From: Allacma fusca
Taxonomy: Eukaryota > Arthropoda > Collembola > Symphypleona > Sminthuridae
DNA: 64,000 bases
NCBI GenBank assembly: GCA_947179485.1
Contig: OX359246.1
Location: 49,455,632 to 49,519,631, forward strand
Direction: 5' to 3'
A program made the translations under genes and the position numbers. The notes under the pieces were generated by a model. That model was given only the letters and a program-made list of their open reading frames with translations. It had not been told where the DNA came from and did not search any database. Position 1 is the stretch's first letter. Each line of letters opens with the position of its first letter. Of this stretch, positions 26,566 to 63,299 are shown piece by piece.

Positions 26566-26573
26566 GGTGCAAT

Positions 26574-27251
26574 TAGTGGTCGGACTAATTCAGTCCAGAA
26601 CCGAAATTTTTCGATTCAATTCGATTCAATTCAATTCGATTCGTAGTTTTTTGGATTCAGTTTGCATTCAGTTTACATATTGAACCGAACCGAACGATTC
26701 AGTTCACACTGCTGGACTGTATTGAATTGTTTACTCTGAATTGCAGTCCAAACGATTAATCATTGCTCAGAACCGGTTAATACTGAAACCTCGTATAGCG
26801 TGAAGCGGAATCTCACGTGAAAAATATGCACACTTTCGTCATAACGTTGTGATTGTTGTTTTGGATCATTCGACACAGCTAACAATCAGCAATGTTCTGA
26901 CATATCATAATTTAATTCAACTTCCAGTAATTTCTGATTATTAATTAAGAAATGGGAATTACATAATAATTTTAATATTAAACTTAATTTTATATTATTA
27001 AATTATTATTAATTCATGTATTTCTAAATGCATGAACAAAACTCATTTACGTGTGGTAGCAGGTACTGCGTGTTAAATTTGTCTGCCCGCAAAAAACAAA
27101 CGATTTTCAATTCAATTCACGGAGTAAAACCGAATTGAATTGAATTGTTTTTATACTGGACCGAATCACAAAACGGTTAACGATTCAGTCCACATAACTA
27201 ATTGGATTGAATCAAAAATTTCTGAATTGAATTGAATCGTTCCGACCACTA
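26574..27251. mobile_element. hAT-like non-autonomous element, AATTGAATT word family
   Basis: The ends TAGTGGTCGG...CCGACCACTA are exact inverted repeats. The flanks GGTGCAAT (26566-26573) and GGTGCAAC (27252-27259) form an 8-bp duplication with one mismatch. Both subterminal zones are degenerate runs of TTCAATTCGATT-like words, mirrored across the element. There is no ORF. Relatives lie at 45993-46806, inside 52041-52424, and at 54864-55307. Confidence 0.8.
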
Positions 27252-27383
27252 GGTGCAACTGAGTGGCACCAACCTATTTGTGCATAATCTCTGTAATAAC
27301 CAATAATCAATATAATAATAACAATAGGGTTTTATTAGTCCATATAGTGGCCTCAGCCATTTCAACCTTTAATAATCAATATG

Positions 27384-27870
27384 GTGACAGTCAAAGTCAT
27401 GTGACTATTACTGACACAGTAAGGTCAATGTGAGGTCATGTGACTATAACTGACACAGTAAGGTCAATGTGAGGTCATGTGACTATAACTGACACAGTAA
27501 GGTCAATGTGAGGTCATGTGACTATTACTGACACAGTAAGGTCAATGTGAGGTCATGTGACTATTACTGACACAGTAAGGTCAATGTGAGGTCATGTGAC
27601 TATTAGTGACACAGTAAGATCAATGTGAGGTCATGTGACTATTACTGACACAGTAAGGTCAATGTGAGGTCATGTGACTATTACTGACACAGTAAGGTCA
27701 ATGTGAGGTCATGTGACTATTACTGACACAGTAAGGTCAATGTGAGGTCATGTGACTATTAGTGACGCAGTAAGGTCAATGTGAGGTCATGTGACTATTA
27801 GTGACGCAGTAAGGTCAATCTGAGGTCATGTGACTATTAGTGACGCAGTAAGGTCAATCTGAGGTCATGT
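27384..27870 (+). repeat. 39-bp minisatellite, about 12 copies
   Basis: The unit is GTGACTATTACTGACACAGT followed by AAGGTCAATGTGAGGTCAT, repeated with few substitutions (ATTACT/ATAACT/ATTAGT, CACAG/CGCAG, AATGTG/AATCTG). Every unit contains AGGTCA-N5-AGGTCA. There are no unique spacers between units. Variant classes are grouped: CGCAG units sit together at the right end, as expected from unequal exchange. Confidence 0.93.
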
Positions 27871-27879
27871 GACCTCAAA

Positions 27880-30154: not shown

Positions 30155-30294
30155 TCAAATTTAGCTACTCACTGTCTTTGGTCTGGTTTGGTCCGAACGA
30201 CTGGATCAGACCAGACCATTGGCATCACTAGTTTCTAGAATGCATGTTGCAGAAGTGCGAAAAACCGAGGGAGAAGAACGCACAAAGCAAGCAA

Positions 30295-30715
30295 ACGTTG
30301 GAACTAAGATACTTGAATCGGTACTTGAAGTGCAAGTTCGGGTTCAAGTAAAATCCATGTCCAGACCCGAACTTGAACTTGATCCTTAGTTCAAGTCAAT
30401 TCTGTGGGCTTGCACTTGGACCAGAACCGACTTGCAGTTCCAAGTTCGGATCCACCAAATACTTGAACTTGACCCGATTCAACGAAGTAGAAACGCTCAT
30501 GATCCCGAACTTGATCCGAACTTGACCTGACTTGATACTTGTCAAGTACTACTTGAACTTGAGCGCAGCTCTGATCTTAACCCGGTTTCATTGTTTTAGT
30601 GCAGCCCGAACCCGGTCGGAACCCGACGTAAGTTCATATTTGCAGCCCGAACCCGGCCAAAAGCCCGCTTCGGGTTTGGGTCGGCCCGAATCAAAAAGCC
30701 CGCTTCCGGGCTCCA
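30295..30715. repeat. Degenerate ACTTGAAC and CCCGAACC word arrays
   Basis: From 30300 to 30560 the DNA is made of variants of CAAGTTC/GAACTTG. From 30595 to 30715 it is made of variants of CCCGAACCCGG/CGGGTTTGGG. Both look like the word-array elements described elsewhere, but the left end may lie in the nearby gap and I cannot define ends. Confidence 0.6.
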
Positions 30716-30723
30716 CCTCTAAT

Positions 30724-31216
30724 TAGTGTTTCTGAACGGTACCAAAACATGGACTCGACCCGACTCGTTTTCCCGAACCGAAAAAATTCCAATTCTGTTC
30801 CCGAAACCGGAACCGATATTTTCGAGTCCGGGACATTTTTGGCTTCCGGAACCGATCCCGAAAGTAAAAGCCGTTCCCGAACCGGTTCCGGTTCCTTTCC
30901 GAACCGACAGAAAATGTATATGATTCATTTTTATGGAAGTCAAAATTGTGTCGCCTTTTCTAATGATAGTTGACAAATGCTGGCCAAATGCAAGTTTCGC
31001 GTTTTCATCCAAATCGGCAGCTTTAACAAACCCTTCCCGAAAACTGTCGGTTTTGATTTTTGTACCCGAAACCGGACCGAAATTTGACGGTTCATAAACC
31101 GTTGACCCGAAACCGGACCGAAATGTAACGGTTCTTTAAAACGTTGACCCGAAACCGTACCGGAACCGAAACCGAACCGGAACCTCGGGAATTCCCGATA
31201 CCGAACAGAAACACTG
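30724..31216. mobile_element. hAT-like non-autonomous element, GAACCG word family
   Basis: The ends TAGTGTTTCTG...CAGAAACACTG are flanked by a perfect 8-bp duplication CCTCTAAT (30716-30723 and 31217-31224). Inside, both arms consist of GAACCGGAACCGA-type words around a short unique centre (30910-31020). No transposase is encoded. Confidence 0.9.
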
Positions 31217-32957: not shown

Positions 32958-32963
32958 GGACTT

Positions 32964-35081: not shown

Positions 35082-38000
35082 GTACGCTAATTACATAACT
35101 ATTTCCTGGAAATTTTCAGTACATCAGCGTACACTGGATTGTTTGATGAAGTACATATATTGAGTCAGGGGGCAGTAACTAGGGTTGTCGGTATTTGGTA
35201 TCTCTCAATTTTGAAATGTTAATAATGATCGCTATGGTTCGGTCGAAAAAAACCGATAACAATATTAAGGAACGATAATATCGATAAATGTTTTAAATAA
35301 TTTACAATAGGTCTGAGAATAACATTAATCACACAAATGGTTGTGCTGTACTAGGATAAGTGGCCTATAAAACCTCCGAAGCCTCACTCTGGCGCAGAGA
35401 AGAAGGCTTCAGCCTTCGAAGGGTAGCCTTCCAAGAAGGCTTCCTTGAAGGCGGAAAGGTCACTTTCTTAACGTTTCAGAAGGAATGGAAGGATGGGGAT
35501 ACTTTTTTCTGAAGGCTGAAGGAAGCCTTCACAAAAACTAGCAATGAAGGATTGTGAAGGAAGGGTTCCTAAATATTAGCCCTCTAAGGCCGTGAAGGCT
35601 TCCAGGTACATGAAATATCTGTAACGTGAAAGCATAGCATATGCAACGACGTTTTGCTGCTAGAGCAACAATACAGCCAATTCGTGAACTCACAACTGAC
35701 AATGTGTGCCCGCTCTCTTCACTGTACTGACTCCTGCTGGTGCAAAACGTTTTTTAGCGGGTTGTAGTTTAAAATTGAAGGACGGATATTTTTAGAAGAA
35801 GACTGAAGGCAAAAATGAGTGTATGTATTTTGGAAGGAAGGGTGAAGGAAGGCAGATTTTTTAGAGGGCTTCATTCTACGACATGTTGAAGGGGAAATTT
35901 TTACTGAATTTACACCTTCGAAGGCTTGAAGGAAGGCTATTTCCTTTGCGCATCTCTGCCTGGCGACCTCTTAAACGAGCACTCACAATCAGAACGTCTG
36001 GTGTCACCTTTTATTTTACACCTTTACCTGCATCTTGTACGACCAGTTGTGGATTCTGGTGGTCGACGTTGAGGACAGTGAAGGTTAGATCTATTAGTTT
36101 AGGCGGGAAAGGGGTGACGTGACACGTGACCATGATGGCCTCGAAGGAGCCTTCTAGTAGAGCATTTCGGGCTGTTAAATTCCTGAGTTGTGCATGAAGG
36201 AGCAGCAATTGTGAATACTAGGTAGGCATGTTCATATCGTTCGATTTTAAAATATCGTTCATATCGTTATCGTTCTGTGAAAAATTACCGATAACGATAT
36301 CGAGGAACGATATAACGATATATCACGTTGTGGCTTCTGGCATTATTTAACGAAAATTAATGGAATTTAATTTCGTGTACAAGCTAATTATTATTACTAA
36401 GACTCCATAAGAACCAAATTTTCAACTCAAATTAGCACAGATTACATTTTATTCCAAATACATGAGTCAAAAAGGCATTGAGTTGCAAATATGCACAACT
36501 TGAAGCAGTTCAAAGATAATAATGCGAGGCATCAGCAAGAGGAAGAAAACAATAAAACTACACATAATAATTACACCATAGAATTTCTGTTCATCCGTAC
36601 ATTGACAACTGACGCCCGAATTCGGATAACCTTATTAGGGAACTTAAGTCATTAAAGTTTCTAACTTTTTCAAAGTTTTCTGAAGTCAACAAAATAGCGA
36701 AAATCCAAAATTATAGTTGCACATCTTTATTCGGAAAAATGCTAAATCCTGTGTATTAGAATGACGGCCAGTTCACTAATGTCGACTGTTAAAAGGATCA
36801 GGTCCATGGTTCCTACAAATCAATCCTTACTTCATAATGATATTTTTAGGGGATATAAAGATCATATGTATGGATGTTAAGGCATGTAATTCAAAAATAG
36901 TGAGCAAATAACTTCAGCAATACAAACTATGAGAATTTATCTGACATTAAATATAAAAGGTGTTCCAAAAGTGCTCTCATTCCATTTGCTTTTTCCTAAT
37001 AAGAATCCCACACTTATGTGTACAAAGTTCAGCCATTAAAATTCTCCTCTTATCAAAATTTTTAGTGCTGTAACCGAACGTAGTTTTTCTCACTACCAGT
37101 CTTGATTTAATCCAAATTTGATGTTTTATGTCTAATGTGTATAATAATTATGATTAGCGCTTTTAAGTGATATTAATCAAAAAGTGCATAATATTTCGAG
37201 CTTCCAGTAGGCTGCAAGCAGTTGGTATTAAGGTTCTCAACGGATCGGGTATATCCGAACGGATACGGATCGGATACGGATAGGATAAAACTGAAGATTA
37301 TCCGATCCGATATTTATCCGAACGGATCGATTTTGTCATTCCCATCCGAGAAAAATCCCGGATAGGATCGGATACTACTACGCAAACTATCCGAACGGAT
37401 CGGATGGCGAGTTTTTGTTTTACGGATTATCCGACGGATATCCACGGATAAACGAATTTTTGAAAACATGACGACCACTCTAATCATTACTATCTTCTGC
37501 AATCACCGACAGGACATTAGTTCGGCAATTTCTCAAAACTTTTGTACTTTTTTCATTTCATGTAGCTTTTGTAGCAAACCTAAAACCGAACCTCACAAAT
37601 ATAAGCATGCCGTCAAGTATTTACGTTATGACCAGAAATTCAGTTATATTTTGAATTTCAGCTGCTTATTCTAGTTACCCGTTCTTATAGGCTGCAAATT
37701 GTTAAACGTGTTCAGTTTGTTAAATTAATTTTTGAGAATATCTGATATGCGAAAAAGAAAACTCTCAATTCTTAAATTATTTATATTAAATGTTTTTCCA
37801 AGCAACAACCGTGCATTGCACGGTTTCTTCTGTCATTACAATACGTTATACGCAAACAGTACTATATTGTAATTAAAGCTAAAATCAAAACTCCAGGATC
37901 AATTTCACCTTCTACAATTAATTCGTGTATCCGCAGATAGGATAGGATATCCGCGGATAGGATCGGATAGCTAATTTTTCGTATCCGACGGCTTCGGATA

Positions 38001-41000
38001 GGATAAATACGTCATCCGAAAATTTACGGATAAGCTTCGGATAAGATAACTTTTAATCCGATGGAAGCGGATAGGATCGGATACGCTTCAGTTTTATCGG
38101 TAAAAATTCGGATCGGATAGGATACGGATAGGATAAGGGAATTATCCTATCCGTTGAGAACCTTAGTTGGTATACTATACAGCATAGAAGCACAGCGAGC
38201 TGAAAAAGCTCTCCTCTGCGACAGAGTTTCAGCCCGCTGTGCTTCTCGGCTTGCTGTGTATACCACCCACTTGCTTGGCTATATAGTGAAATAATATAGT
38301 ACATAGCGGCTTGTTAAATAGTGAAATGAGCTGCGAAGGTTTGAATTGTAAAGCCAACGCCGCGAAAGTTTGAATTGTAAAGCCAATGCCGCGAAAGTTT
38401 AAATCAACGGACAGGAAGTGGTCAATATTAATATAGACTAGTAAAAGCCCCGTGCTTCGCACAGGAGCAATTACTTGTGTAAATAAATAGTGTAAATAAT
38501 AAAAGTGTAAATGGCAATAGATCTCGTATCAAGGCCTGTCGAGAAGGCTTAATATTAATATCCCGCGTCCCCAGGCAAAGTAATCTCATGTAAGACGTGA
38601 AGTATTAACTGTAAGACTAACAATTCGTTTCATATAGGTAGTTGGCATTTCATCATCAAAATATTATGGGATACCAGCTTTCGGCCCACTAAAGTTTTCT
38701 CCCAATCTCAATATTTGGCTATACACGTGGAATTTAACTAACCGCTTGATCAATTTAATACCAACGTCGTTATTAAATCTTGCTGTTGCATCACTGTATG
38801 GTGCTTCACTCCTTATTGTTAGTGGATCAGCACACTGTGCTGATCAAATATGATTTTTTATGTTATTATAATTTGTATATAAATCCGTTGTACCGCATTA
38901 TTGTAACTGAAGCCTCAGACACTGGACGCACTGATTATTTAATTTTTCCTAGTAAGAGTCCCACACTAATGTGAACAAAGTTCAGTCATTAAAATGCTCC
39001 TCTTATCAAATTATTCTGTACTGTAACCGAACGTAGTTTTTCTCACTACCAGTCTTAATTTAATCCAAATTATTGATGATTTATGTCTAATGTTTATATA
39101 ATAATTATGATTAGCGCTTTTAAGTGATAATCTAAAATGGCGTAATATTGAGAGCTTCCCTTCCAGTAGGCTGCAAGCAGTTGGTACATATATGATTAGC
39201 CGAGAAGAAAAGCGAGCTTAGCGAGCTGAAAAAGCTCTCCTCCTCCTCTGCGACAGAGTCTCAGCTTTCACCCGCTGTGCTTCTCGGCTTGTTGTATATA
39301 CCACCGACTTGCTTGGCTTAAGCCGGGATGGTTTGAATTCGTGAAATAAGCCGCGAAGGTTTAAATCAAAGGACAGGTCGAGACGTCGAGAGCAATAAGA
39401 AGAAGGATAAGCCGCGAAGGTTTAAATCAAAGGACAGGTCGAGAGCAATAAGAAGAAGGATTGCCTTCAATACTTACATTTGCCTTCCAGAGTACTGTGC
39501 TAGGGATATAGTGATTTATATCACGACGAGCAATTGCTGGGTCAGCGAGGAAAATGTAAATAGGGAAGGCAGTAAATGGTTGCATGCAATAGCTACTATA
39601 GCTAGCTGCACAGTACCATAGTCGTCGATACATCTAGAGCGCGCGAATATTTGATTCTTACCATCACGGTCACGGTCACTATCCACTCTTTCAACTTAGA
39701 AGAGAGGATTACTGCCGTTTGTGCTGACAAATTAGGACCAAACAAAATGTAAATCCACTTATGGCTTATAGTCTGTTGCTTCACTACTAACACAAATATC
39801 CGTCGGGTACTGGAACCGGGTAATACAATACCCTATATCCATAAATATTCAAAAATTAGTGATTTTCGCTGCATCAATATGTTTTAATGATTGTTAGACG
39901 TCTGACTATTTTAGTGCCAATGGCATCCAGACATTGGCACTTGGACGTTTGGTCCTAATTGGAAAGAACAAACGAGTTATCGTGATGTAACCATGCCAAC
40001 CTAAGCCGAGTATCCTGTTACCCGAATAGGCCCAAAAAATTTATTTAAGCTACTGGTGTGCTGTTGAACACATTTGTGTCGGGTTTGCCTTAAACACAGT
40101 ATTTTGGAAATAGCATGAGGCAGTGATGGGTAACGTTATTGGTTAACGTTAATGAATAACGTTATTATTGATAAAATCCTACTAACGGTTAATGAGATAT
40201 TACGTTTAGCATATTCCACTTGGTTAACAAAAACTTAACGGAAACCAGTGCTCGGACTGGGTACGGGTAATACTCGGGTAAATGGGTACGGGTACAGGTA
40301 TGGGTACTACCCGGGTACAGAAATTGCGTACTCGCAAGTACGCGGGTACTACCCGGGTACTCTTGATTTTAGGAAATAAAGTGGGTACAGGTACGGGTAC
40401 GGGTATGGGTACTCACTCAGTGGCAATCGGGTAGTAACCAATGGGTACGGGTATCACTATGTAAAATACCTGTACCCGTGGGTGCTGTACCCGAGTATTT
40501 TTGGGTACTTCAAGGATTCCTAATGAGATGGATTACTATGGTTAACAATAAGACCTACCAACCGTGGAGTTGCTTATTTCGTAGTATACAGATACTTGTG
40601 TTAGTGACAGAGCCAAGTGGCTTCGTCTCATCTATGATTACGTGGTAGTTGCAATCTAACGCTTCTAATAATTCATCAAAGGAATCTAATAAAGAAATAG
40701 AGCGTAGAGTCAGTGAAATCATCTATTTAACGACTTAAGTAGTGAAGCTCATGAACGAAGAATTTCAAGAAGGAGGTTCTTGGGATTCAATTTAATTAGC
40801 TTCATTGGGAGCGTAACATTACAATTATTTAAAGACGTATTACGAGATAAGATCGCAATAAATATACATTTATTAGCAGATCCATTTCTTAACGTTACAA
40901 GTACCCAGGGTTGCCCATTTGAAAACGCCAAGGCATTTTGTGCAGGCAATTTGAGCATTTTCAATTCTGGGTATTTATGACACTTTGAGTATTTATGGAG

Positions 41001-44000
41001 GTGATTATTTATAACATTTTAGAATGAAAAATATTATTCCTTGCACGCAATATTTATATTTCAGTCCATTTGATTAATCTTGATAATTTTGATGTTAAAA
41101 GAACTTGAGACATCTGAACTTGGCGTTCAAAACTTCCATGGGGTTGCATTTTAGTCCTATTTTGCTTGCATTTTTCGAAAATCTCCGTCTCGGGCCTCAT
41201 AAATGTGAGAGACAGTTTACGAATGTTTGTTTTATAAAGCTGTAATATAAAATGAATATTCAATATTGCCTCCCACATTTATTTCCTGAAACCGCAATAT
41301 TTGACATGGAAAACTTATGATCAACTCAATTTTTCCGTATAACATTTTCTATACACAGTGTTCAATTAGCCGTAAACGATTAGCCGAAAAAAAATTGTTT
41401 CTTGTTCTCCAAGTTGAAAAGCAAGTTATGGAGAGCTTAGTATTAAAGAATCCGTCCCAATTCCAATTAGCGAGAACGTTTCATTTCATTCAGCAGGTTA
41501 TTATTTTGGGGCAGTAGGATTTGAATTTCGTCAGTGTTTATTAAAAAAATCAGAATGCCTTAAATAATTTTTTCAAAAAATTCAAATAGGATGTCTTTAA
41601 CACCTGAGGAAAATTCCCAAAATCCCTGACACTTTTAATGGAGGTCAAAAAATTGACAAATTAAATTTTTTTAGCTGGGCAGGCTAATGTCGTCGGGGAT
41701 TTTAAATCGGCTTAACTTCCAGTACCCGAGTAATACCCGGGTACACACAATAGATACTCGGGTACTGGTGCAGGTTTTGGGTACATTACGGGTACGGGTA
41801 AATTGTGGGTACAGGTACTACATTGTATTTTCAGGTACGGGTACGGGTACTGAAATAATTTACCCGGGTACTCGGGTATGGGTACGGGTATAGGTACAGC
41901 ATTTTGTAGTACCCGTTATTCGGGTACGGGTATGGGTACGGGTACACGGTTTCTGTACCCAGTCCGAGCACTGACGGAAACCGAAACCTCTGGACAGCAA
42001 ATAACATAAACCGAATCACAATAACGTTATTATCCGTTATTAAAAATCCTTGCCACGCTTACAATTTACTACCATCCAAACATGGGCGCCTGCCTAGATT
42101 CTAGGCCCTATAATAGGCTAAGGCTCTAGGATGCTGCAAGTTGGGATATAAATCTAGGCGAGGTTCTAGGCTAGGCAATCACCACTACAATATAGGCTTA
42201 GGGAAAATCTAGGATATTCAGATATTTCTGAAAAAGGGACTGGGCTTTTCAGGCAGGCTCAGAGATGCGCAAAGTAAATAGCCTTCCTTCAAGCCTTCGA
42301 AAGCGAAAATTCAGTAAAAGTTTTCCCCTCAACATGTCCTAGAATGAAGCCCTCTAAAAAATCTGCCTTCCTTCACCCTTCCTTCCAAAATACATACAAT
42401 TGTTTTTGCCTTCAGCCTTCTTCTAAAAATAGCCTTCCTTCAATTTTACAACTACAACCCGCTTAAAAACGTTTTGCACCAGCAGGGTTCAATATTCAAT
42501 GCAGTGGAGAGAGCGGGCACACATTATATGTTGTGAGCTCACTAATTGGCTATATTGTTGTACGCCGTTGCATATGCTATGCTTTCACGTTATAGATATT
42601 TCATGTACCTGGAAGCCTTCACGGCCTTAGAGGGCTAATATTTAGGAACCCTTCCTTCACAATCCTTCATTGCTAGTTTTTGTGAAGGCTTCCTTCAGCC
42701 TTCAGAAAAAAGTATACCAATTAGCGATGGCAAATATCGCCACATTGCTCATATCGGAAATATCGCTATCGCCAAAAACAGTTTTGGCGATATATCGCAT
42801 ATCGCCGATATATGACCAAGTTTATGCCCCATTCAATATCAATCAAGTTATCCCATGCAAAGACCATTTCTTTTTAAAATATTTGTAAATGTAACAGATC
42901 GGTAAAGATTAATGCGAATATTTTGAGTACTTTCCTTACAGTAGTTGCACTTTGCTTTCAACAAATATTTTAGCCTCAAAAAGTAATTTCAAACAACTGC
43001 CCGTCGCCCTGCCCTTCCACTGTATTCAATACATTTACTGTTGTGAATACTTTGTCCATATTTGTGGTGTTAATCTTTTTTGGTCGAATTAGACGAGTCA
43101 TTTCCGTCTGTCCGTCCGTCCGTCTACAAAATATTGTGAGTCGCACAACTCAACAACGGAATGACATACGGACATGGGACTTGTCCCAAAAAATCGGACA
43201 TACATTCTAGATGTGCCTTTTGATATTTTCCCTGACCCAGGGTCAACCGTTTGACCTCTGAAAATTATTTTCTGGATACAATTATCAAAAAATCTCGCAT
43301 TTGCTATACCTTTCCGACGGATTGACGTATGGACATGCGTCCTTTACAGATAACAATCAAACTATTTCCCTATCCTACTAAAAATCAGTACGTAAAATAC
43401 AGACGGGGATAGTATTTGGAGCTTCAGCCGCGGATTCAAAGGATTCTTTTTCAAAATCATTTTTTGGCTAAACTTCTGTTATGAATTGTGAGTAGTGAGC
43501 GCTTGAATTGAGGGTGATATCACCTAGTTCTGTAGAGCCTAGAGACCCACTGACTCTGTCATACTTCGTCATCCAAGTCAAAACTGACTCACCCACATAA
43601 AGGATGACATCATTGATGGACGTTCCCTTATTTTAATAGTAGCGCGCGGAGCTTTAAATTAACACAGCCCGGCAGGATTCGGCCAGTAATATAGTGATTT
43701 TACCATGGCCGTAAGCGTGAAAATAGATGAATGGACCTTTCTGTATTCAATCTGAGGGCCTTTTCGCTGTTTTTTACCCTTGCCGGGCCAGTGTGGGTCA
43801 CCCGTAAATCTAGCCCTGCTTTGTTAGGCTGGAAATGTTGGGAATGATGCCTACGGTGTTGGTCTATGGGAATATGTCTAAGGGAGCACATACTCGTGTA
43901 CATTGCCTGTGTTTCAAGTTTTTATTGCATCAGTTGCGTTCTTGGTTTTGCTCAGTTCGGAAACAAATTCGGCAAGACTGATTCAGCACAAGGACAGTAT

Positions 44001-47000: not shown

Positions 47001-50000
47001 GGATACCAGGCCTAGGTTAGCATGTTTAAATGACGATTACTGCCGTTTGTGTTGGTCAATTAGGACCAAACAAAATGCAAACCCACTTGTGGCTTATAGT
47101 ATGTTGCTTTAATGTTAATGCAAATATTCGGCGGGTACTGGAACTGGGTAATATAATACCCGATATTCAAAAATATTACAGAATTCGTGGTTTTTACTGC
47201 AGTAATATGTTTTAATACTTGTTTTTTTATTTTTGAATATCGGGTATTGTATTACCCGGGTGAAATGCCCGGACGTCATTAGCACGAAGATAACCTGACG
47301 CCTAACAAGTATTAACACATATTACTGCAGTAAAAATCACGAATTCTTTAATATTTTTGAATATCGGGTATTGTATTACAGAAAGGAATATATATATATA
47401 TATATATTCCTTTCTGTTGGAGTCTTTCATAATTGGCAAATGACGATTCAAAATACCCTAATTCGTGTTAGTCTGACTCTCCTGCTCATTACTTTTTCCA
47501 AATCTTTAAGTTTCTTCCAGAACTTAACGTTTTTCACAACTAACGTGACTAATACAACTGACAACTAAACAATTGATTCAAATTATTGATTGCTTTATGA
47601 ATAGTAAATAGTACTCAACCAATGAATGCCATTTGTGATTACTTTACGAAAAAGGCTCAATTACTGGTTACAAGTAATGATTAAATAGTAGAAAATATTC
47701 AAATACTATTTACAATTAACGATTACATCTAAAATTTGAACATGGATAATTTGCGATTAGTGATTATTAATCTTTAATCGTTGATAATTATTTGCGAATA
47801 TTAATCCTTGACATATCTGCCGCTTGTTGAATGCTTCCTAAAAATGAGTCATTTAGCTTATATTGCCGTACTTCACCAACTTTCGGATATGAAAGTTTCT
47901 TATAAGGATTAACATTGGAAAATTGAAGTTGGACAAGAACCCTGTAGCGATGAGTTAGTTTATCATTTATAGCTTTGGCCTGTGGATCGATTTCCCGCGC
48001 AAACCATGGTGAGATGGTCCGAACATTTTTCCGCGCTGGGACAATGGGCCAGGTACTACCTAAACATAAAATTTCATTATGATTTTGAGTAGGCATGGGA
48101 AGTGGGTTACTTGTCAACAGTGGGGGGTACGGACATAACCCCGTCGGCATGTTCCCGTGGTCACAATCCAGAATGCAATAATCCCGACGTACATATGAAC
48201 AGTGACACATTCCTGCCGTTCGGGAAATAAGCAATTCTAAGCTTGAAAGAAAGTACTAATTCAGTTGTTACTATAGCAGCAAAGCATTGCCCTACAGAGC
48301 ACAAGTAGCACACTTCGTTCCCCTAACCAAAAATTAATGTTCTGCCTTCGAATCTTGTGTAAAGCACTTCATGTAATTGTTGTGTATATAATTCATTGGG
48401 TAATGTTTGTATTACTCGGTGAGCTTCCTCCCACAAAAATCCCACATAGCTCCAATTTTAATGAAATCTGTTCGCGAAAGTAAAATCCAAAGCTGGGCGC
48501 ATACCCTACATGTATGCGTACAAGTAGGAGTAGGTTTTGCTCAAATTTTCTAATATTTTGTAGGCAATTGTATGTAGGCAGGGGTCGGATTTTTGTTTTT
48601 CGTAAATCACCTCAACAAATTTGAAAATCCCTGCTGACCAAAAATCATTTTCGTAAATCACCTCAACAATTTCGAAAATCCCTGCCAAAAAAAAGGTCAA
48701 CAGATTTGAAAATCCCTGTTTGCAATCCCGTTTGAAAATTTCCCTGCCGACAATTTTTTTCCCTGGGAAGATTCTTCCCGTCTTCCTACATAAATCCGAC
48801 CCCTGTAATGTAGGCTGCATATTTCAAGAAAAATTCTGCAATTGACGTATACTGGGAATAATCAGTATGTAGGTACTAGGCATGAGCGGAACGATATACC
48901 GATACGATATATCGGTCCATATCGTACATTTTTAAGCAACGATATGTCACGATATTTCTCGCAATTTTAAAGCGATATTTCGGTTAATTTTAATATCGTA
49001 CATAGGCAGTTTAATTTTCAAAAATGCCACCCTGTGTCCCTCTTACTACTTGTTTTTTAAGTAAAGCTATCAAGGAATGTGAAACGTTACAAATGTCATT
49101 GAAAACGTCTGTGCAAAACGGATAAAACTCGAGCATTTTAAAAATACTTGTCCGAATTCGAAGTTAGAACTGTAGTAATACAAAAAAAAACAAAACAAAA
49201 TGCTTATTTGCAGTAAGCAAGCATTTTGAAACTTAGTTTGTTTGAGCTTGCCGATGCCGATAGTGCTCGGACCAATTCAATTCTGAGTCGGAAAATTTCG
49301 ATTCAATTCAAGACGAAACTGAACCGGTTGGTTCAGTTTGAATTGAACGGAATCATTTTACTTAAATTATTGAAGTTCAAACGATCCACCGTTTACCAGC
49401 TCTCCAGTTCCTAATATGAAAAAATCCAGGGCATGTCATAAGTGAAGTATTACAGGTCTTAAAGTTCAATATTTCAAGGAATTTGATTTTACAGGCTGTT
49501 TTAAGGAGAATAAATTTTAAATATTGAATATTCTGCAAAGATACGTTGAATCTGATAGTCTCATCAAAATTAGTATATTGCTTTAAATTTAATCAAATAC
49601 CGATATATCGCTCATGGATATCGGTATCGTGATTTTTCTTGTTAACGATACCGATATTAACGATATTTTAAAATTGAACGATACGCTCATGCCTAGTACT
49701 CACAAATACGTGGGTACTACCCGGACACTCTGGATTAAAGATAATAAAGTGGGTATGGGTACGGGTATGGGTACTCACACTGACTCAGTGGAAATCGGGT
49801 AGTACCCAGTAGATACGGGTATCGCTACGTAAAATATCTGTACCCATGCATGCTGTAAACGAGTATTTTTGGGTACTTCAAGGATTCCTACTGGGATGGA
49901 TTACTATGGCTAAGACGGGGAGTTTGGCGTAAACCTACTTTGCTCGTATCAGTAAAAGACCCATGAGCAGAGGTGGCCATTCAATTTTCCACAACACTAT

Positions 50001-53000
50001 ATACTCTAAAAGCTTAGTCAGGGTAAATGCCACTACTTACCACTACACTACACACAAAAATAGTTTTCACAACTATTCTATAATACTCTGTTTTGTTGTT
50101 ACTCAAGACTACCACTACACTACTTTTCAGTAGAGTTTTACTTTCACAGGGCACCTTTACGCTACTCTACCACTACTTGTCGGAAGCTAAAAATTAGCTA
50201 TACTCTACACTACAACTATCACACTACTCTACGTAGTAAAAAAGCCACACTATGCAATATACAACTAGTTTACTGAATAGCCGTGCAATTTAATCTCAGC
50301 CTAAAATCATATAATTTTAATATAAACCTAAAAAGGCTCCTAAGTTCTAAATATATGCTATAAATATGACTCCTAGAGGAAAAAATCCAGTTCCATCGTA
50401 TGTAAATACAGTTTATACTATGTGGATGAAGCTAGACGTTCATGCTAAATTACAGGTGTACAGGACCGACCTTTACAAGAATCAATTGTAGGTTAGGCAT
50501 TTTGAAAAACTAGTTTATTGTTTTAGACAGCATTCACATGCGCGTACAGATATAACTCAAGTACATACATACATGAGACCGCTGACTATACCTTATAAAA
50601 ACGTGTTACAAGTTGACACAAGGAATAATTAGATTTGACAATGGACTGTCCGTTGCCACTTTATGTACGGATTCTGCTATAATATGGATTTGGCTTGAAT
50701 TTTAGAACTGTTAATTAACGCAGGATTAAAGCACTTAAAAAATAGAGATCAATACTGTGATTTTGCTTTTGCAGATTCAACTACTGCTAAAAAGGATCAC
50801 AAAGTAGAATTTACAATGCTCCAATACAAATACAAGACGTTACTACATCCAATCAGGCAAACGCACAATGTTTCGACTATTGAAACGATGTAAGATATAG
50901 AAAGTTATGAAAAGACATAGTCACACATTCCATGTTTAAGTATAGTGCTTACTCGGGTAGCACTATTTTTTATTGGACTTTGAGTTTGCGTGTAAACTAC
51001 TTCTACACTACATCCAAACTGAAGTCAGTTCCACTATTCTACACTATATTTTAGGAACAATGGTGAACGGCCACTAGTAGTTACTGGTATTTACTTACCT
51101 GCTGATGTCTCCGTCGTCCTACTCTACCAATAAATATTATTTTATTTCATTTTCAATAACTACTCTACTTTTTGCACTATTCCACTACCACTACTAAAAA
51201 GTAGAGTAGTGTGGCCATCTCTGCCCATGAGGCTTCGTTTCCTTTTCTGATTACTGGTGGTTGTTGCATTTTAACTCAATTGTGTATTACGATCAGTGCA
51301 TCAATTTGAGTATTGTTGATAATTTTGATGTTAATAGTAGGCATGAGCGTATCGTTCAATTTTAAAATATNNNNNNNNNNNNNNNNNNNNNNNNNNNNNN
51401 NNNNNNNNNNNNNNNNNNNNNNNNNNNNNNNNNNNNNNNNNNNNNNNNNNNNNNNNNNNNNNNNNNNNNNNNNNNNNNNNNNNNNNNNNNNNNNNNNNNN
51501 NNNNNNNNNNNNNNNNNNNNNNNNNNNNNNNNNNNNNNNNNNNNNNNNNNNNNNNNNNNNNNNNNNNNNNGTACCCGGTAGGCATGAGCGTATCGTTCAA
51601 TTTTAAAATATCGTTAATATCGGTATCGTTAACAAGAAAATTCACGATACCGATATCCATGAACGATGTATCGGTATTTGGTTAAATTTAAAATAACATC
51701 CTAAATTTGATGAAATTCTATCAGATTTAACATGGTTTCGCAGAATATTTAATATTTGTAATTTATTCTTTGACAAAACAGCCTCTAAGATCTAATTACT
51801 TGAAAGATTGAACTATAAGATCTGTAATAATTCAATTATGTCTTGCCCCGGATTTTTTAATAGGAACATCCTAGCTATTTCAAATACAATTAAACGTACA
51901 ATTACAAATTAAACGGATTACAAGATTCTAAAAAGTAGTGCACGTACTTAGTAGTAACTGCAGTGTGGTAGTAAAGTTATGCACTGTAAGGGCCGAATTA
52001 AAAATATAGAGTTGCAAGAAACGATACTAACTTGTGACTAGTAGTTGGAACGGTTCAATTCAGTTCAGTTTTTTTCCAGTTCAGTTAAATTCACAAGCTG
52101 AACTGAATTGAAATGAGATTTTCGATTCAATTCAGTAAAAAAAATTCAATTCAATTCAGTTCAAAATTTTGAATTGTATTGAACTGAATAAAAAACCAGC
52201 GGTTTCTGCAGATACAACTAACAACTGACACTTTGTAGAAAAGATGGTAGCATTTTCCAAGCACACTCCAGAATGAAGTTAAATCGTTTGAACTTCAATT
52301 TAAGAAAAATGATTTCGTTCAATTTAAACTTATGAACTGAACTAATGGGTTCAGTTTCATCTTGAATTGAATCGAAAATTTCTGACTGAGAATTAAATTG
52401 GTCCGAGCACTACCGGTTAGTTCAAACAAACTAAGTTTGAAAATGCTTGCTAGTAGGTATTTCTACAGTTCTAACTCCGAATTCGGAAAAGTATTTTAAA
52501 CATGCTCAAGTTTTATCCGTTATGCACATACATTTCAGTGACATTTTTAACGTTTCACATTCCTTGATCGCTTTACTTACAAAACATGTAGTAAGAGGGA
52601 TACGTTGTGGCTTTTTCGAAAATTGAACCTCCTATGTACGATAATAAAATTAACCGATATATCGCTTTAAAATTGCGAGAAATATCGTGACATATCGTTG
52701 CTTAAAAATGTACGATATGGACCGATATATCGTATGGTTATATCGTTCCGCTCATGCCTAGTACCCGGGTAGTACCCATACCTGTACCCACGCCCATTTA
52801 CCCGAGTATTACCCGTACCCAGTCCGAGCAATGGTGGTCAACCAACCCATAAGGTCTTTTTCTGACCAGATCTAAAAGAATGTTGTTATGGTAAATCAGA
52901 CGGGCGAAGGACTATTTCGGCGGGATTAGTGTTTTCAAACGTTACTGACGGGGTTATTGTTGTAAGATAATTGACCGTGGGAGTGTAACCGCACATGTAG

Positions 53001-54863: not shown

Positions 54864-55307
54864 TAGTGGTCGGACCAGTTCAGTTCAGTTTGGTTCATAC
54901 AAATTCTGGTTCAGTTCGATACACAAACTAAACTAAATGGTTCGGTTCCAGCATAAAACTGAACTGAATCGTTTGAACTGATTGCTACGCATGCACAATA
55001 AAACCTGTTTCTGTCGTTTTGTATGACGCACTTCTCATCTCTAACTGTTACTTTTTAAGGAATATCTACGTAAAATGTGATTACATTTGCAGTGCAAGAA
55101 CAGTACTAGATTGAACATATTTAAAATCGGGATTAAGTGGGATGCAAAGAACTGTGTACCTCGTATTTAAAAAACCTCTCTCTATATATACATATTCAGT
55201 TCCGAAGAATAGCTAACTGAACTGAAATTTTGATTTTCGATTCAGTTCACTTTGTGAACCGAACTAAACTGAATTTTACTAACTAAACTGAACTAGTCCG
55301 ACCACTG
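54864..55307. mobile_element. hAT-like element, TTCAGTTCAGTT word family
   Basis: The ends TAGTGGTCGGACC and GTCCGACCACTG are flanked by CTGGGGAC (54856-54863) and CAGGGGAC (55308-55315), an 8-bp duplication with one mismatch. The arms are AACTGAACTGAA words. It is closely related in its ends to 26574-27251. Confidence 0.82.
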
Positions 55308-55403: not shown

Positions 55404-56188
55404 TAGTGATGGCAAATGGCTATATGGCGATACGATATATCGAAAATATCGCCACAACGAGTGGCGATATTTAAGGCGATAAATCTCGCCAAGTTGATCG
55501 ATAATATCGGCTTATCGCACAATTACTACGGTTAAATAGCTCACGACTTTTGTGCGAAATTGTGAATGTAATAATTACATACTCTTTAAAAATGGTAAAA
55601 ACTCTTTAATTATTAAAGAGTTTCGTACCATGCATATTTCTTTTCGACCATTTAATGCAACCTTTGAGCTTACCTACTATTACTTACTTCATCAATCCTC
55701 ATTCTTACATTATTCATATGGTGGGTAGCAGGTATTCCGTATTAACGGTGAGCAGATTATATTTAAACTTTTAAGTAGTCCTTTTAATATTCGTTTAAAA
55801 TGAATAAAAGTAAAAAACTAATTCCACTAAAAAGATTGACGCCACCAATATGGATAAAGCATTCACTACAGTAAATGTATTGACTACAGTGGAAGGGCAG
55901 GGCGATGGACTGTTGCTTGAAATTATTTTTTGAGACGAAAAGATTGTTTGAAAGCAAAGTGCAACTATTTGTAAGGAAAGTACTCAAAATATTCGCATTA
56001 ATCTTTACCGATCTGTTACATTTACAAATATTTTAAAAAGAAATGGTCTTTGCATGGGATAACTTGATTGATATTGAATGGGGCATAAACTTGGTCATAT
56101 ATCGGCGATATGCGATATATCGACAAAACTGTTTTTGTCGATAGCGATATTTCCGATATGAGCAATGTGGCGATATTTGCCATCACTA
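55404..56188. mobile_element. hAT-like element, GGCGATAT word family, complete copy
   Basis: The ends TAGTGATGGCAAAT and ATTTGCCATCACTA are flanked by a perfect 8-bp duplication GTATGTAC (55396-55403 and 56189-56196). Arms carry CGATATATCG/GGCGATATT words; the centre is non-coding. Confidence 0.92.
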
Positions 56189-56242
56189 GTATGTACTTAC
56201 AAGGTAATACTTTCAGATGGTACACGTGGAGTCAAACAAAGC

Positions 56243-57531: not shown

Positions 57532-58122
57532 CAGACATGTCCAAATGAAATAGCCTTCCTTCAAACCTTCGAAGGCAATTTTTTGAAAAAACGCATTCCT
57601 TCACCCTTCTATTAAAGGAAGCCTTCAAAATATTTTGCCTTTCTTCAGCCCTACTTTACTTATTAATTTAATGCCTCCAGCCTTCAGCCTTCAAAAAATA
57701 TCAGCCTTCCTTCCTATTCAGCCTTCATAACACGAAATACCATAGAAATGCATTTAAACAACCCTTTTGCAGGTAAAACATCTAAAAATCAGCGATACAA
57801 TTTACTCAATTGAGTTGAGTCTCATTGTGCATATAACTATACATTTGTGCATTTGTAGTGTTTTTAGTGCACTCTCATTGTTGTATTTGTAACTATCTAT
57901 TGTCGTTCATTGCATGCGTGAAGCCTTCTAAGTAGCAGAAGGCTACTTTATATACTTCCTTCCTTCACCTTCCGTTTTCTGTTAATACTAGGAAGCCTTC
58001 CTTCAGCCTTCCCGAATTAATACAGCCATCCCGCCTTCCCTTCCCAACTCTCTGGAAAATTGATATTCCGCCTTCAATGAAGCCTTCATTGAAGGCTAGC
58101 CTTCGAAGGCTGGACATGTCTG
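57532..58122. mobile_element. hAT-like element, second CCTTCGAAGG family with CAGACATGTCC ends
   Basis: The ends CAGACATGTCC and GGACATGTCTG are flanked by GAATATAG (57524-57531) and GAATAAAG (58123-58130), an 8-bp duplication with one mismatch. Its arms use the same GCCTTCCTTC/GAAGGC word as the CAGAGATGCGCA family, but its ends and centre differ. Confidence 0.85.
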
Positions 58123-58399: not shown

Positions 58400-59247
58400 G
58401 TATCATGTGCACTTTGTTACTACACGGGTAGTAAATATACACATTGGAAAGTATTAATAATGTATACATAATTATCCAGGGGTTTAGGGGAAAGTAATGT
58501 CTTCTAGGCTAGGACAAGTTCTAGGCAGGCGGTCCCTTACTCTAATAGCCTATATAGGATTACAAGCAGGCACTTTCCGCCACCAGCCTTGAGGGACATT
58601 GGCATAAATCTTAAATTGAAATTCTGGGCCTATAAGGGGGCCTCAGAAGATTTTAATATTATAGGCAGGATATAGGCTAGGGTAATGAAAAGGCCCACCT
58701 TTGACGTGAGTACTAAAACATATGGTATGCTTTGTTTGACTCCACGTGTACCATCTAAAAGTCTTAACTTGTGTATGTACGTCTGTACTTCTGTCTGCGG
58801 GCACGATGAGTCAACAACTTGTTTAAGATTTTGTTGAAACTTGGTACACATGGTCTGCGGGAATAAAGCTTGGATGAATGCGTAGATGAACTTGATCTAC
58901 CGTGTCGAAGTTACCCAGATTTTTACTTATAACTTTAGAATCAGTTTCTAGATTTTGTTGAAACTTGGTATACAAAGTCTCCGTGGATAACGCTTAGATA
59001 TAAATGAGCTTCATTGGTCAGACTGATTTGGAGAATGTATGTATTTATTTAGCACTTATTGACATATATTTTAATAGTACATACATCGAAATATCATGCC
59101 AATTTTACTTTAATCATATACAGCTATACTGTTTCCATCTCCTTTACTAGTGAGTCTTATTCCGGATCTCATCGGTTTACGTACCCGTGTGACTGAGTGC
59201 GATTAGTGGGACCATATGTCCATCCCCTGCAGCCCTACATGTATCTG
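58400..59247. repeat. Spacer with CTAGG words and a GTTGAAACTTGGTA repeat
   Basis: 58505-58690 is a CTAGGCTAGG-type array. A short piece (58730-58764, TTTGACTCCACGTGTACCAT) matches the complement of the spacer at 56208-56242. TTTTGTTGAAACTTGGTA occurs twice (58831 and 58953). No gene is seen. Confidence 0.5.
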
Positions 59248-59255
59248 GTACATGC

Positions 59256-59805
59256 CAGAGATGCGCAGCCTTCGAAGGCTAGCCTTCCAAGAAGGCTTCT
59301 TTGAAGGCGGAAAGGTAACTTTCTTAACGTTGCAGAAGGAATGAAGGATGGAGATAATTTTTTCTGAAGGCTGAAGGAAGCCTTTACAAAAACTAGCAGT
59401 GAAGGATTGTGAAGGAAGGCTTCCTAAATATTAGCCCTCCAAGGCCGTGAAGGCTTCCAGGTACACGAAATATCTATAACGTGAAAGCATAGCATATGCA
59501 ACGACGTTTTGCTGCTAGCGCAACAATGCAGCCAATTCGTGAATTGACAATGTGTGCCGCTATCTTCACTTCACTGAATCCTGCTGGTGCAAAACGTTTT
59601 TAAGCGGGTTGTAGTATACAATTGAAGGAATGCTATTTTTAGAAGAAGGCTGAAGGCAAAAATGAGCATATTTATTTTGGAAGGAAGGGTGAAGGAAGGC
59701 AGATTTTTTAGAGGACTTCATTCTAGGACATGTTGAGGGGGAAATTTTGATTGAATTTTCGCCTTCGAAGGCTTGAAGGAAGGCTGTTTCCTTTGCGCAT
59801 CTCTG
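59256..59805. mobile_element. hAT-like element, CCTTCGAAGG family, complete reference copy
   Basis: The ends CAGAGATGCGCA and TGCGCATCTCTG are flanked by a perfect 8-bp duplication GTACATGC (59248-59255 and 59806-59813). Both arms are GAAGGCTGAAGGAAGGC words; the unique centre is 59430-59610. It is the best-preserved of three copies. Confidence 0.94.
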
Positions 59806-60721
59806 GTACATGCACATTTCTCATATAGCTAAGTGTAAAGACAGATAGAAAATACCCACGAAGATATGCAGTGGGAGCTGGAGTCGAAGCCGACTCCTCT
59901 GCAGACATACTACACCACCGAGAAGCCTGGACACCTCATAACTGGTTCCGAGTTACCCGGGAATTCTATAAACAGCAACAAGGTATCCGATTTTGTTTAA
60001 ACTTTCTATCACTGCTGCCCTAGTCTAGTCAGACTTGACTAGGAAAGTGTAGACTTGACTAGACTAGAAGCCAAAATACAAGTAAAAGAATAGACTTGAC
60101 TAGACTACGCCTGGTGTTAATATTTTGAGACTTGACTAGAATAGACTAGGGCAACTTCCAAAAACACAGGACTTGACTAGACTTGACTTGCTTGACTTCA
60201 TGGAAAAGCTAGTCAAGTCACAATTACTTGAGGTTCCCTCAATTATTGAAATCAAAACTAGAAAGCCAGCATGGAATTCCAGTGTACACGAAACGCTCAT
60301 CGTCAGGGACGTTTAGTGTGCTTAGTATAAGATATCGTTTTGAAGGATCAAAACATATTGTTCCCTGAGACATGTGTTTAGGAAAAATCTAGTTTTTAGT
60401 TACAATTTATTCTTTAAAAAAGTTGCAAAAACTAACTACTTTATTGACTGACTATTGTTAGTTTTAAACTTTCCTACCTGGTATATAGGAATTTAACATG
60501 GGTTTTTATGGGTTACATTATATGGAATTTCCACTGGGACACACCAGGGAAACACATGGTCCAAGTTGTGGAATTCATTGTAGGCTGTACCATGTTATAA
60601 ATCCATTGTATCAGTTATTAACTCAACCGCAAAATGACAACGTTAAAGGGCACGTTATAAAGAGTGGTTCTTTGGTTTGGAGTGGGGTTTTGGACGAATG
60701 AAAGAAGTGCCAGCCATGTAA

Positions 60722-61763
60722 TTGGTATTAATTGAAGAAAAACTGGTGGTGACAATCATGTATGTTGTACATAGTATGTTTCAAATGCACCTGCAACGTA
60801 GGTGGTAGTAATTTTTCTGAAACAGGTGCTGACAACAAGGAATCACGCAGGTTCCACCAAGTATGTTTTGCCTCCATCAGAAACCAACTTGGTATTAATT
60901 TTTGAGAAACTGGTGCTGACAATAAGAAATCGCGCAGGTTTCACCAAGTATGTTTGGATTTCACCAGAACCAAACTTGGTAACAATTGAACCAAAACTTG
61001 GGTGGTGAATCCGAATTTGGGGAATTGGAAACAACCCATCGCCAGAGATCAGATTTTTGTAAATATCACTGGACGATCATTTCAGAATTTCCCTGCTGAA
61101 TTTTATATCCCTGCAGGGAGGTCCTGAACGATTTCATAAATCTTTGCTGAAAAAAGGTCAACGATTTTCAAAATCCCTGTTGGCAAAAATAATTTTGCTA
61201 CAAGACTTCAAATCCCCCAAACAATCGCCAAACAAATTTAAAAATCCCTGCCAAAATAAAGGTCAACGAATTTAAAAATCCCTGTTCGCGAAAAAGAATC
61301 CCTTCCCTATGAGATGTTTTCCTGAGACAGAAATATTTTTCCCTGGGAAGAATCTTCTCGTCTTTCCACAAAAATCCGATCTCTGCCCGTCGCTTCGAAC
61401 GTTCAGGTTAGGTTAGTTCGACTGAAAAGGAGTGACGGGGGTCATCGCACGACGACCCACAACAGTTGTCACATCTGTTGGTGAGCATACAAAGGAAATT
61501 GATATCATTTGATACAAGAACATTTTGTGGATATGTATCGTTGCCTAGTTTCTGATTCCTCATAGTCAGCACTAGTTTTTCTTCAAGTAATACCAACTTC
61601 TTGTTGGAATTAAAATACTTGGTGGTACTTATATGTTTTCTCATTGTTAGCACCTTATTTCCTTGAATTACTACCAACTATGTTGTCGGTGGGGTCCAAA
61701 TATACTTGGTTCACCTTAGGTGAATCCTCATTGTCAGCACTAGTTTGTAAAAATTAATACCAA
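60722..61763. mobile_element. TIR element with CCAACTTGGTA words, nested
   Basis: The ends TTGGTATTAATT and AATTAATACCAA are exact inverted repeats, extended with mismatches through ACTGGTG-TGACAAT. The arms contain several ACCAAGTATGTTT/AAACTTGGTA words in mirrored order. No clean target duplication. It is interrupted by 61043-61385. Confidence 0.65.
61043..61385. mobile_element. hAT-like element, AAAATCCCTG word family
   Basis: The ends CAGAGATCAGATTTTTGT and the complement of ACAAAAATCCGATCTCTG are flanked by CCCATCGC (61035-61042) and CCCGTCGC (61386-61393), an 8-bp duplication with one mismatch. Filled with AATCCCTGCCAAAA-type words. The relative at 48583-48806 shares both ends. Confidence 0.83.
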
Positions 61764-62675
61764 CTATACTCACGGTTCAGCAAGTGCCTAGTACATTGTA
61801 GTTTTCCTATACCTAACATAATCATACCAGGTATACATATATTCGGGGGTCTCTACCAGGAAGGAAAGTTTGCTGGGCGAAAATCTTGCTGAACACAATT
61901 TTTGTACTGACGTTGTGAACTACATGTGTTGTTTGTCATTTGTGCGTTATTGGATTAAAATAAACATGAGCTAGTTTTTTTTACATGTACACCCTAAAAT
62001 CTGAAATTTTTAAGCTCAACGAGACGTTATATTTCACTGGACAATTTTTTTAAACAATATTTTTTATATGTTGCTAATAAAAATGAAGGAACTTTTATAA
62101 AAAATACACTGTGACTAGGGGAATAGACTAGACTTGACTAGGGAACCAGCTGCAGATTCAAGACTAGGACTAGACTAGACTATTGCTGCTTAAACATACC
62201 GCTGACTTGACTAGACTTGACTAGTTGAGGCTCTAAACTTTAAAGAATAGACTAGACTTGACTAGGTAGCCTGGCGGCAGCAGTGCTTTCTATACTCAGT
62301 CTCATGTTTCAGCAAAGGTGAATGCGTTAAACTTTCCAGAACGTGAAAATAATGTCAAACACATTACGGTAACGTACTTCACAGTTTGTGGGGAAATTAT
62401 TGCAAAATTGGTTCGCTTACTTTCACAGCGCATGTACGTGACCCTCGTGTGTCTGTCCCTTTGTACACGTAGAGTGCGATCTTTTACGACAAAGAACCTT
62501 TCAAGATTGTAGGTCAAAAATTGGATTCATCAGTTAATAGCTTCAAACGTAGGATTTTTTACGTACCCTAAACGGCACGAGGTCAAGATTAAGGAAATAG
62601 TAAGGAGTGGGAATATGGGAAAAGGAATTGAATAAACTGTCGGAGCTCATTCCATATGGACAAATGGCTGCAAGG

Positions 62676-63291
62676 CAAAGCTGGGCACATATCCTACATT
62701 TATGCATAAATATACGCAGTTTTTTATGTATGTTTGCACATTTTCCGAATATTTGTATGCAATATATGTAGGCTGCATGTTTCTACTAAAAAACGTATGA
62801 TATATGTATGCTATGAATACTGTATGTACGAGTATGTATGTATAAAAGTCCGGGAGATTTAGGTATGTATGTACTATGTGTGTTCAGCGAGCTCCATCTG
62901 TATCTTCTTGGCACGGTCTGTCTATTGGTGTATCCATCCGCATTTGTTATTTCCTGCTGCAGTGCAAACGATTTCCACACGTTCTGACTGAAACCTGCAA
63001 AAACGAAACTAGAAATTAATAATTTTAAACTTAATTAATTAGCTATACACACGCCGAAGCAATGCTTCATTAGTTTTTATAAAGGTTCAGAAGGTTCAAC
63101 ATACACTTTTGTAGGCACGTGTACATATATTTATGCATACATTTATTTATATGCTGCTTATATGTATGATTAAATTTCTGGACAAATTTATGTATGCAAA
63201 ATGTATGCAAAATGTATGCAAAATGTATGCTCTTTGTAAACTATAAAATGTATGTATGATTTAGGATACGCAATTTTTTTGCCCAGCTTTG
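62676..63291. mobile_element. hAT-like element, TATGTATG word family
   Basis: The ends CAAAGCTGGGCA and GCCCAGCTTTG are flanked by a perfect 8-bp duplication CTGCAAGG (62668-62675 and 63292-63299). Arms are rich in ATGTATGC words, including four tandem AAAATGTATGC units (63190-63232). No ORF of note. Confidence 0.9.
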
Positions 63292-63299
63292 CTGCAAGG

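Follow-up and report, generated by a model that had tools for sequence, protein, structure and literature searches.

Introduction

Repeated subterminal motifs have been described in the hAT transposons Ac, Herves and Hermes and in Kat1, a domesticated hAT of Kluyveromyces; the account that follows is that of the accessible parts of the reports cited. The Ac transposase binds the repeated subterminal hexamer AAACGG, and Ac requires some 200 bp at either end; Ds1 has little in common with Ac beyond the tips and a few of these repeats (PMC3260210). The Herves transposase binds CGATTCAT as well as weaker variants, a four-copy probe being sufficient, and binding has been mapped experimentally to the outermost ~100 bp at both ends (PMC3143072). 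In Hermes, where an end of ~220 bp is needed, BED domains bind short subterminal repeats (STRs) in an asymmetric complex, and STR2–7 of the left end are all antisense while STR1–5 of the right end are all sense (PMC10368747). The hexamer AATTCA/TGAATT, repeated between the terminal inverted repeats (TIRs) of Kat1, has been suggested to stimulate cleavage (PMC4763223). On the protein side, hAT-derived BED proteins (CGGBP/hAT-19) differ in their preferred 8-mers, and for four hAT-encoded BED proteins the motifs match the subterminal regions of their own element (PMC8097297). Here we compare with these systems a stretch of 64,000 nucleotides (the window; C8:49455632-49519631) from the 392.7-Mb, 91-contig genome of the springtail Allacma fusca. 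The window holds thirteen insertions, elements A to M, with repeated words in their arms.

The insertions are best explained as non-autonomous elements, resembling miniature inverted-repeat transposable elements (MITEs), that belong to many hAT families present in a single animal genome. All have short inverted tips and an 8-bp target site duplication (TSD), and over some 200–250 bp at either end they are filled with a degenerate word particular to the family. The arms are best read as the ~200-bp ends of the parent element, composed of putative subterminal transposase-binding repeats, and we place the probability that the arrays are transposase-binding arrays of non-autonomous hAT elements at roughly 0.83. 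Although the tips are inverted, the arrays keep a single direction from one end of the element to the other. The kind, a non-autonomous hAT with subterminal repeats, is known; what is striking is its degree and number.

Ends and target site duplications

All twelve insertions listed in a first-pass annotation of the window were recovered with their tips and duplications, eight with a perfect TSD and four with one mismatch, and a thirteenth (element M) was added, so that nine of the thirteen TSDs are perfect and four carry one mismatch (Table 1). The insertion at 37229–38165 stands, with its ends better read as TAAGG..CCTTA and GTTGGTAT as its TSD. Tips of hAT elements start with the consensus YARNG, which is seen in ten of the thirteen; H (CAGAC), J (CACTG) and M (TAGGC) are each off by one position.

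TIR pairs were scanned with 12-bp tips, at most three mismatches, a spacing of at most 2.5 kb and a YARNG start, a filter that leaves H, J and M outside. Among the 134 pairs found between 26 and 64 kb, six are flanked by a perfect 8-bp duplication and eight by a perfect or one-mismatch duplication; when the same pairs were displaced by 40 offsets, the corresponding means were 0.025 (maximum 1) and 0.2 (maximum 2). Perfect duplications of 4 to 10 bp at these pairs number 3, 1, 0, 0, 6, 0 and 0 in order of length. None of the 49 YARNG pairs at 1–26 kb has an 8-bp duplication. At hAT-like ends, such duplications thus occur well above the shifted controls. TIR pairs with any start show only a small excess of perfect duplications (16, against a shift mean of 7.0 and maximum of 17), and the TSD signal therefore rests on hAT-like starts.

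The survey was extended to ten 10-kb stretches on each side of the window (200 kb, each scanned separately), for a total of 264 kb. Window and flanks together gave 23 perfect and four one-mismatch TSDs, compared with means of 0.4 perfect and 1.3 in all over 15 shifts. Two rows were dropped as chance (L035:1061-7050 and window:57199-62039) and H, J and M were added, resulting in a set of 28 elements, 13 from the window and 15 from the flanks, which we group by tips, word profile and alignment into about 21 families. The flank also contains a decayed hAT fragment, for which the only protein match (E <= 0.001) is from Allacma fusca, at 80% identity and 18% of the query. A search of a plasmid collection returned no match.

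Word arrays in the arms

Repetition of 6-mers in the arms, with both strands pooled, exceeds that of all 300 dinucleotide shuffles in 12 of the 13 window elements, K being the exception; to this extent the family-specific arrays reported earlier are real. As background, 86 consecutive 300-bp segments of the first 26 kb have a mean of 36.9 and a maximum of 103, against 129–592 for the arms of the 12. In the wider set, for which the arm was defined slightly differently, 25 of 28 elements exceed all 200 shuffles.

The extent of the arrays was profiled in the 20 of 28 elements longer than 550 bp, using words taken from the outer 15–110 bp. Pooled word density is 0.11–0.20 at 100–225 bp from the tip and then drops to 0.08 at 225–250 bp, 0.03 at 250–275 bp and 0.012 at 275–300 bp. 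The last value is the level of the flanks, which is thus reached by ~275 bp, and bins farther in lie at 0–0.015.

Two further descriptions of these elements apply in part. A centre with a higher AT content than the arms is seen in 9 of the 13 window elements and not in the remainder, which makes an AT-rich centre a weak general trait, and self-complementarity is a property of some words and not of others.

Autonomous elements with the same architecture

Candidate hAT transposases number in the hundreds in this genome: a profile search with PF05699, the hAT C-terminal dimerisation domain, gave 150 scored hits from 860 candidates, and hits in none of 14 control genomes. Eight of the 150 places, picked for long open frames, were fetched, and five of these transposase loci sit in elements with TIRs and an 8-bp TSD (L053, L054, L052, the inner element of L049, and L050; Table 1). 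The arms of four of the five exceed all 200 shuffles. L056 has kept a CGGATA arm, of which only the one was found, and the ends of L051 and L055 were looked for and not found. Assignment of the L049 transposase to the family of element E was considered and rejected; the outer element of L049 is a relative of E, and the transposase lies in an AACGTTA-word element inserted within it. The 8-bp TSDs, the hAT-like tips and the autonomous hAT elements of like architecture in the same genome uphold the original assignment to this superfamily.

One of these loci corresponds closely to a window element. The arms of C and of the PF05699-bearing L053 align over 228 bp (80%) and 237 bp (84%), and tips and word are also common to both; outside a single 45-bp stretch and the repeated words, their centres cannot be aligned. 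A search of the genome for hAT transposases with the same words at their own ends had been proposed as a check, and L053 is such a case. Against L053 the hAT-like RNase-H profile PF14372 scored 21.5 bits, below its cut-off of 27. A BED finger is above the Pfam cut-off in L050 and L051 and below it in L055, and was not found in the scanned frames of L049, L052 and L053. L050 has a match to Hermes chains (E 4e-11) and a weak one to a ZBED1 BED-finger structure (E 0.003). L054 is ~95% identical to L053 but has 36 bp of word sequence duplicated exactly and in tandem, 11 bp inside the left tip on the L054 reverse strand; one route by which arrays can grow is seen here.

The shared architecture of the autonomous elements, together with the tips, word and arms common to C and L053, argues for the earlier suggestion that the arrays are amplified, putative transposase-binding sites. 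The BED zinc finger of the family's own transposase would bind the word, and many weak sites could gather several fingers of a multimeric transposase. An element without a gene might then move as long as its arms are kept, and the arrays would lengthen by tandem duplication and be kept by selection for binding. A common direction in both arms could follow from tandem growth or could tell the left from the right end.

Direction of the arrays

Direction was measured by counting 7-mers common to both arms in direct and in inverted orientation. Direct counts exceed inverted counts in 28 of 28 elements and do so at least two-fold in 16, which belong to 11 of the ~21 families; no element is inverted by the two-fold criterion. 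Four are close to balance (direct/inverted: A 54/49, F 28/27, G 20/19, M 17/14). Random segments of the same length (n=1120) lean direct in 528 cases and inverted in 439, with 99 and 61, respectively, passing the two-fold criterion, and randomly paired arms of different elements share little (means of 5.5 direct and 5.9 inverted). In 20 of the 28 elements the observed excess of direct over inverted counts is reached by none of 100 dinucleotide shuffles. Resolved by depth in 33 elements, the five autonomous ones included, the bias is only mild at 12–60 bp (19 direct, 13 inverted) and pronounced at 60–130 bp (26 versus 3) and 130–200 bp (24 versus 5). All five autonomous elements lean direct, as do all ten fetched copies of family L. 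The first-pass annotation had described the arrays as mirrored in both arms; mirror symmetry was rejected in three tests, and no element could be classed as mirrored.

What the direction means can be read in two ways. The chances seem even that it plays no part in distinguishing the ends and is a mere by-product of arrays growing by tandem duplication or by template switching. The direct 36-bp duplication separating L053 and L054 is of the kind that this would produce, and the best local arm-to-arm match is direct in J (score 64, versus 25 inverted) and in K (64 versus 17). Against it, the polarity of the Kat1 repeats is reported to differ between the ends, so growth need not force one direction (PMC4763223). 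There is also little tandem duplication to be seen in the other family comparisons: three copies of B show no indel of at least 5 bp, and only one of the 23 indels of at least 5 bp between the ends of D and L045 is an exact direct copy.

The other reading, which we put forward tentatively and regard as the less probable of the two, is that word direction labels the ends, such that left and right ends would present opposite strands to the transposase when read inward from the tip. Were this true, the symmetry of the inverted tips would be broken and a multimeric transposase could accept only pairs made up of one left and one right end, the same job as is done by the asymmetric layout of BED sites in Hermes; if general, array polarity would constitute a rule for hAT ends. 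The one-way polarity across ~21 families is the surprising part of these data and the part worth pursuing, whether or not direction has a function. Should it hold in other hATs, it would make the pairing of left and right ends with inverted tips testable. No description of one-way arrays as a rule was found in the literature searched, outside which subscription papers largely fell, and this is weak evidence of absence.

Arms as the shared unit

In several families, elements with different centres can still be aligned in their arms, which are retained where the centre is free to vary. D and L045:6045-7343 have alignable arms of ~255 bp and unrelated centres, and the arms of H and I align over ~165 bp at 73% and 45 bp at 87%. 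H and I share a word and differ in centre, an observation that had earlier been made correctly and read as a hint that the word itself might be the recognised unit; as the arms align, the sharing is explained by descent.

It could conceivably be the family word alone that is recognised, which would allow unrelated elements to share a word. H, I and L040:1215 have CCTTC in common, with tips 1–3 bases apart, and G and M have ATATCG in common, with tips six bases apart. We consider this improbable, since the arms of H, I and L040 align by descent and their sharing amounts to inheritance, whereas G and M are unalignable and their words are short and near-palindromic, such that chance may account for the match.

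Tips and words may not always travel together. The tips of A and F are identical at 12 of 12 positions and those of D are one or two mismatches away, and the words differ; between A and F, however, there is partial similarity of words (cosine 0.33), and parts of the arms can be aligned over short stretches. I and L042:2530 likewise have tips identical at 12 of 12 positions, with different words and no alignable sequence. Modularity of TIR and word is only suggested by these cases, because 378 pairs and a conserved hAT start allow for chance matches.

Genomic copies and the origin of the arrays

Genome-wide copies were collected for two families, A and L. Family A has at least 40 long matches including the window copy (40 of 690 first-look candidates were scored), of which 35 cover the predicted element from tip to tip. 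Of the 28 loci fetched, again with the window copy, 23 have a perfect TSD, three have one mismatch and two have none that is recognisable. Family L has at least 40 further matches (40 of 407 candidates scored), most ending near the predicted tips, and nine of the ten copies fetched have a perfect TSD. Substitution rates in tips, arms and centre are 0.009, 0.018 and 0.046 in family A and 0.008, 0.044 and 0.061 in family L (window copy included). Within both families word counts are similar, one of the two points on which a check had been suggested; the other, mirror symmetry, is not borne out.

The arrays might instead be neutral, minisatellite-like expansions that slip easily, are tolerated near hAT tips and are unbound by the transposase. 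The exact 36-bp duplication in L054 would fit such expansion, as would the behaviour of Hermes, in which transposition was not dramatically lowered by mutating putative BED sites within the left end (accessible part of PMC10368747). We consider neutral expansion improbable. Arms change less than centres in A and L, though weakly so; they are common to elements with unrelated centres (C/L053, D/L045, H/I); and, when 20 elements are pooled, the arrays end at ~250–275 bp.

The first-pass annotation had also entertained a repair step that builds the arrays anew whenever an element inserts. Nothing was found in favour of this idea, which is barely credible, and as a general origin it is refuted, since separate insertions within a family have their array in common: 28 A loci with differing TSDs and ten L copies keep similar word counts and align throughout. 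In families A and L the arrays are inherited between copies and not made at insertion.

A number of observations weigh against binding-site arrays as the explanation. Element K falls narrowly short in the 6-mer test (48, against a shuffle maximum of 50), and the arrays of K, L033:5979, L039:3772 and the inner L049 element, the exception among the five autonomous ones, fail to beat all shuffles. Among the eight loci fetched, arm homology to a PF05699-bearing element, and with it an autonomous partner, was found for C only and for none of the other 12 window elements. L053, which goes with the word of C, has no BED finger in its scanned frame, and L051 has a finger yet no ends were found for it. 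The difference between arms and centre in family A is weak, being reached by 42 of 671 circular shifts, and in family L the 50-bp bin that changes fastest (150–200, 0.102) lies across the point where the left arm ends. The tolerance of the Hermes left end belongs here as well, and it implies that long arrays such as these need not all be bound.

Elements and other features of the window

More than one copy was observed for B, D, E, G, I, K and M. The features of each element are collected in Table 1.

Table 1. Insertions of the window, followed by the autonomous hAT elements located elsewhere in the genome
Element	Position	Strand	TIR	Word	TSD	Remarks
A	26574..27251	.	TAGTGGTCGGAC	GAATTGAATT	GGTGCAA(T/C)	non-autonomous hAT; arm direction near balance
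B	30724..31216	.	TAGTGTTTCTG/CAGTGTTTCTG	CCGAA/GAACCG	CCTCTAAT	direct arrays; two more copies in flanks, ~93% identical
C	37229..38165	.	TAAGGTTCTCAAC	CGGATA	GTTGGTAT	
D	40246..41973	.	CAGTGCTCGGAC	GGGTACGGGTA	ACGGAAAC	direct arrays; enclosed by AACGTTA-rich sequence
E	49968..51223	.	CAGAG(G/A)TGGCCA	CCACTACACTACT	CCCATGAG	direct arrays
F	54864..55307	.	(T/C)AGTGGTCGGAC	AACTGAACTG	C(T/A)GGGGAC	arm direction balanced
G	55404..56188	.	TAGTGATGGCAA	CGATATATCG	GTATGTAC	near-palindromic word; second copy, inverted, at 56243-57016
H	57532..58122	.	CAGACATGTCCA	CCTTCGAAGG	GAATA(T/A)AG	direct arrays
I	59256..59805	.	CAGAGATGCGCA	CCTTCGAAGG/GAAGGC	GTACATGC	direct arrays; more copies at 35410-35958 and 42260-42715
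J	60010..62285	.	CACTGCTGCC	GACTTGACTAG	CTTTCTAT	strongly direct arrays; K nested inside
K	61043..61385	.	CAGAGATC(A/G)GAT	AAAATCCCTG	CCC(A/G)TCGC	relative at 48661-48805
L	62676..63291	.	CAAAGCTGGGCA	TATGTATG	CTGCAAGG	direct arrays
M	51579..52760	.	TAGGCATGAGCG	ATATCG/ACGATA	GTACCCGG (perfect)	arm direction near balance
L053				CGGATA		autonomous hAT element
L054				CGGATA		autonomous hAT element; left tip diverged
L052				AACGTTA	one mismatch	autonomous hAT element
L049, inner			CAGRCCTGGATAAC	AACGTTA	GCTAGTAG (perfect)	autonomous hAT
L050				CAACAA		autonomous hAT element

The two inverted copies of G form a long palindrome (55404–57016), and the flank beside the left copy recurs inverted at 58728–58772, as if two copies had recombined. 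Two inverted copies of M (48877–49913 and 51579–52833) each lie beside a D-type arm piece, which suggests that M copies residing within a D element were the end points of an inversion; a gap in the assembly (51371–51570, N) adjoins the second. Beside A, a clean tandem array occupies 27396–27873, with a 39-bp unit, 12.3 copies and 97% matches. By eye, GGGGGTTATTCTCGAA-like inverted ends, which are not hAT-like, enclose a TTACGA-type word at 32509–33512, and degraded word arrays without clean TSDs can be recognised at 45990–46812 (AATTGAATT), 48579–48808 (AAAATCCCTG) and 30165–30712 (CTTGAACTTG/CCCGAACCCGG).

Open frames in the window were listed from stop to stop with a minimum of 110 amino acids. 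A Gypsy-type long terminal repeat retrotransposon lies at 11462–16457, and its frame at 12405–16457 contains protease, reverse transcriptase, RNase H and integrase domains. At 19906–25468 a fragment of an integrase core is found beside several long minus-strand open frames, three frames being without a Pfam match; we take this region to be virus-like in appearance. The segments 33687–35090, 43848–44438 and 53555–54160 look by eye like host-gene exons with a repeated domain and have no Pfam match.

Comparison with known hAT systems

With ~21 hAT families in 264 kb bearing arrays of their own, and autonomous hATs elsewhere, this one animal genome offers natural material for the co-evolution of BED-finger specificity and element arms. 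With Ac/Ds the present elements share short TIRs, a repeated subterminal word and ~200-bp ends, the arrays here reaching ~275 bp. They differ from Ac/Ds in having arms filled by the arrays, a multitude of words within a single genome and a word direction that is the same in the two arms. In Ac the words are mirrored near the tips.

Herves resembles the present elements in having one motif repeated at both ends, but the accessible part of its description mentions no diversity of words. If the ends of Hermes are read inward from the tip (the first STRs of the left and right ends align), its STRs would lie on the same strand in both arms. Unlike the words here, the Hermes sites are short (AAGT/C) and scattered and form no word arrays, and BED domains are placed on the left end only in the structures, so far as the accessible text goes. 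The work on CGGBP/hAT-19 differs in being a protein-side study, whose accessible portion describes no element arms of the present kind. In Kat1 the reported difference in polarity between the ends is the opposite of the rule seen here (PMC4763223). A study of coral MITEs (PMC2872659) deals with piggyBac-type elements and is set aside here.

The remark that standard hAT MITEs lack arms of this sort was overstated, given the repeated subterminal motifs of these four systems. Beside Ac, Herves, Hermes and Kat1 it is the length and number of the words in Allacma fusca that look unusual; the principle does not.

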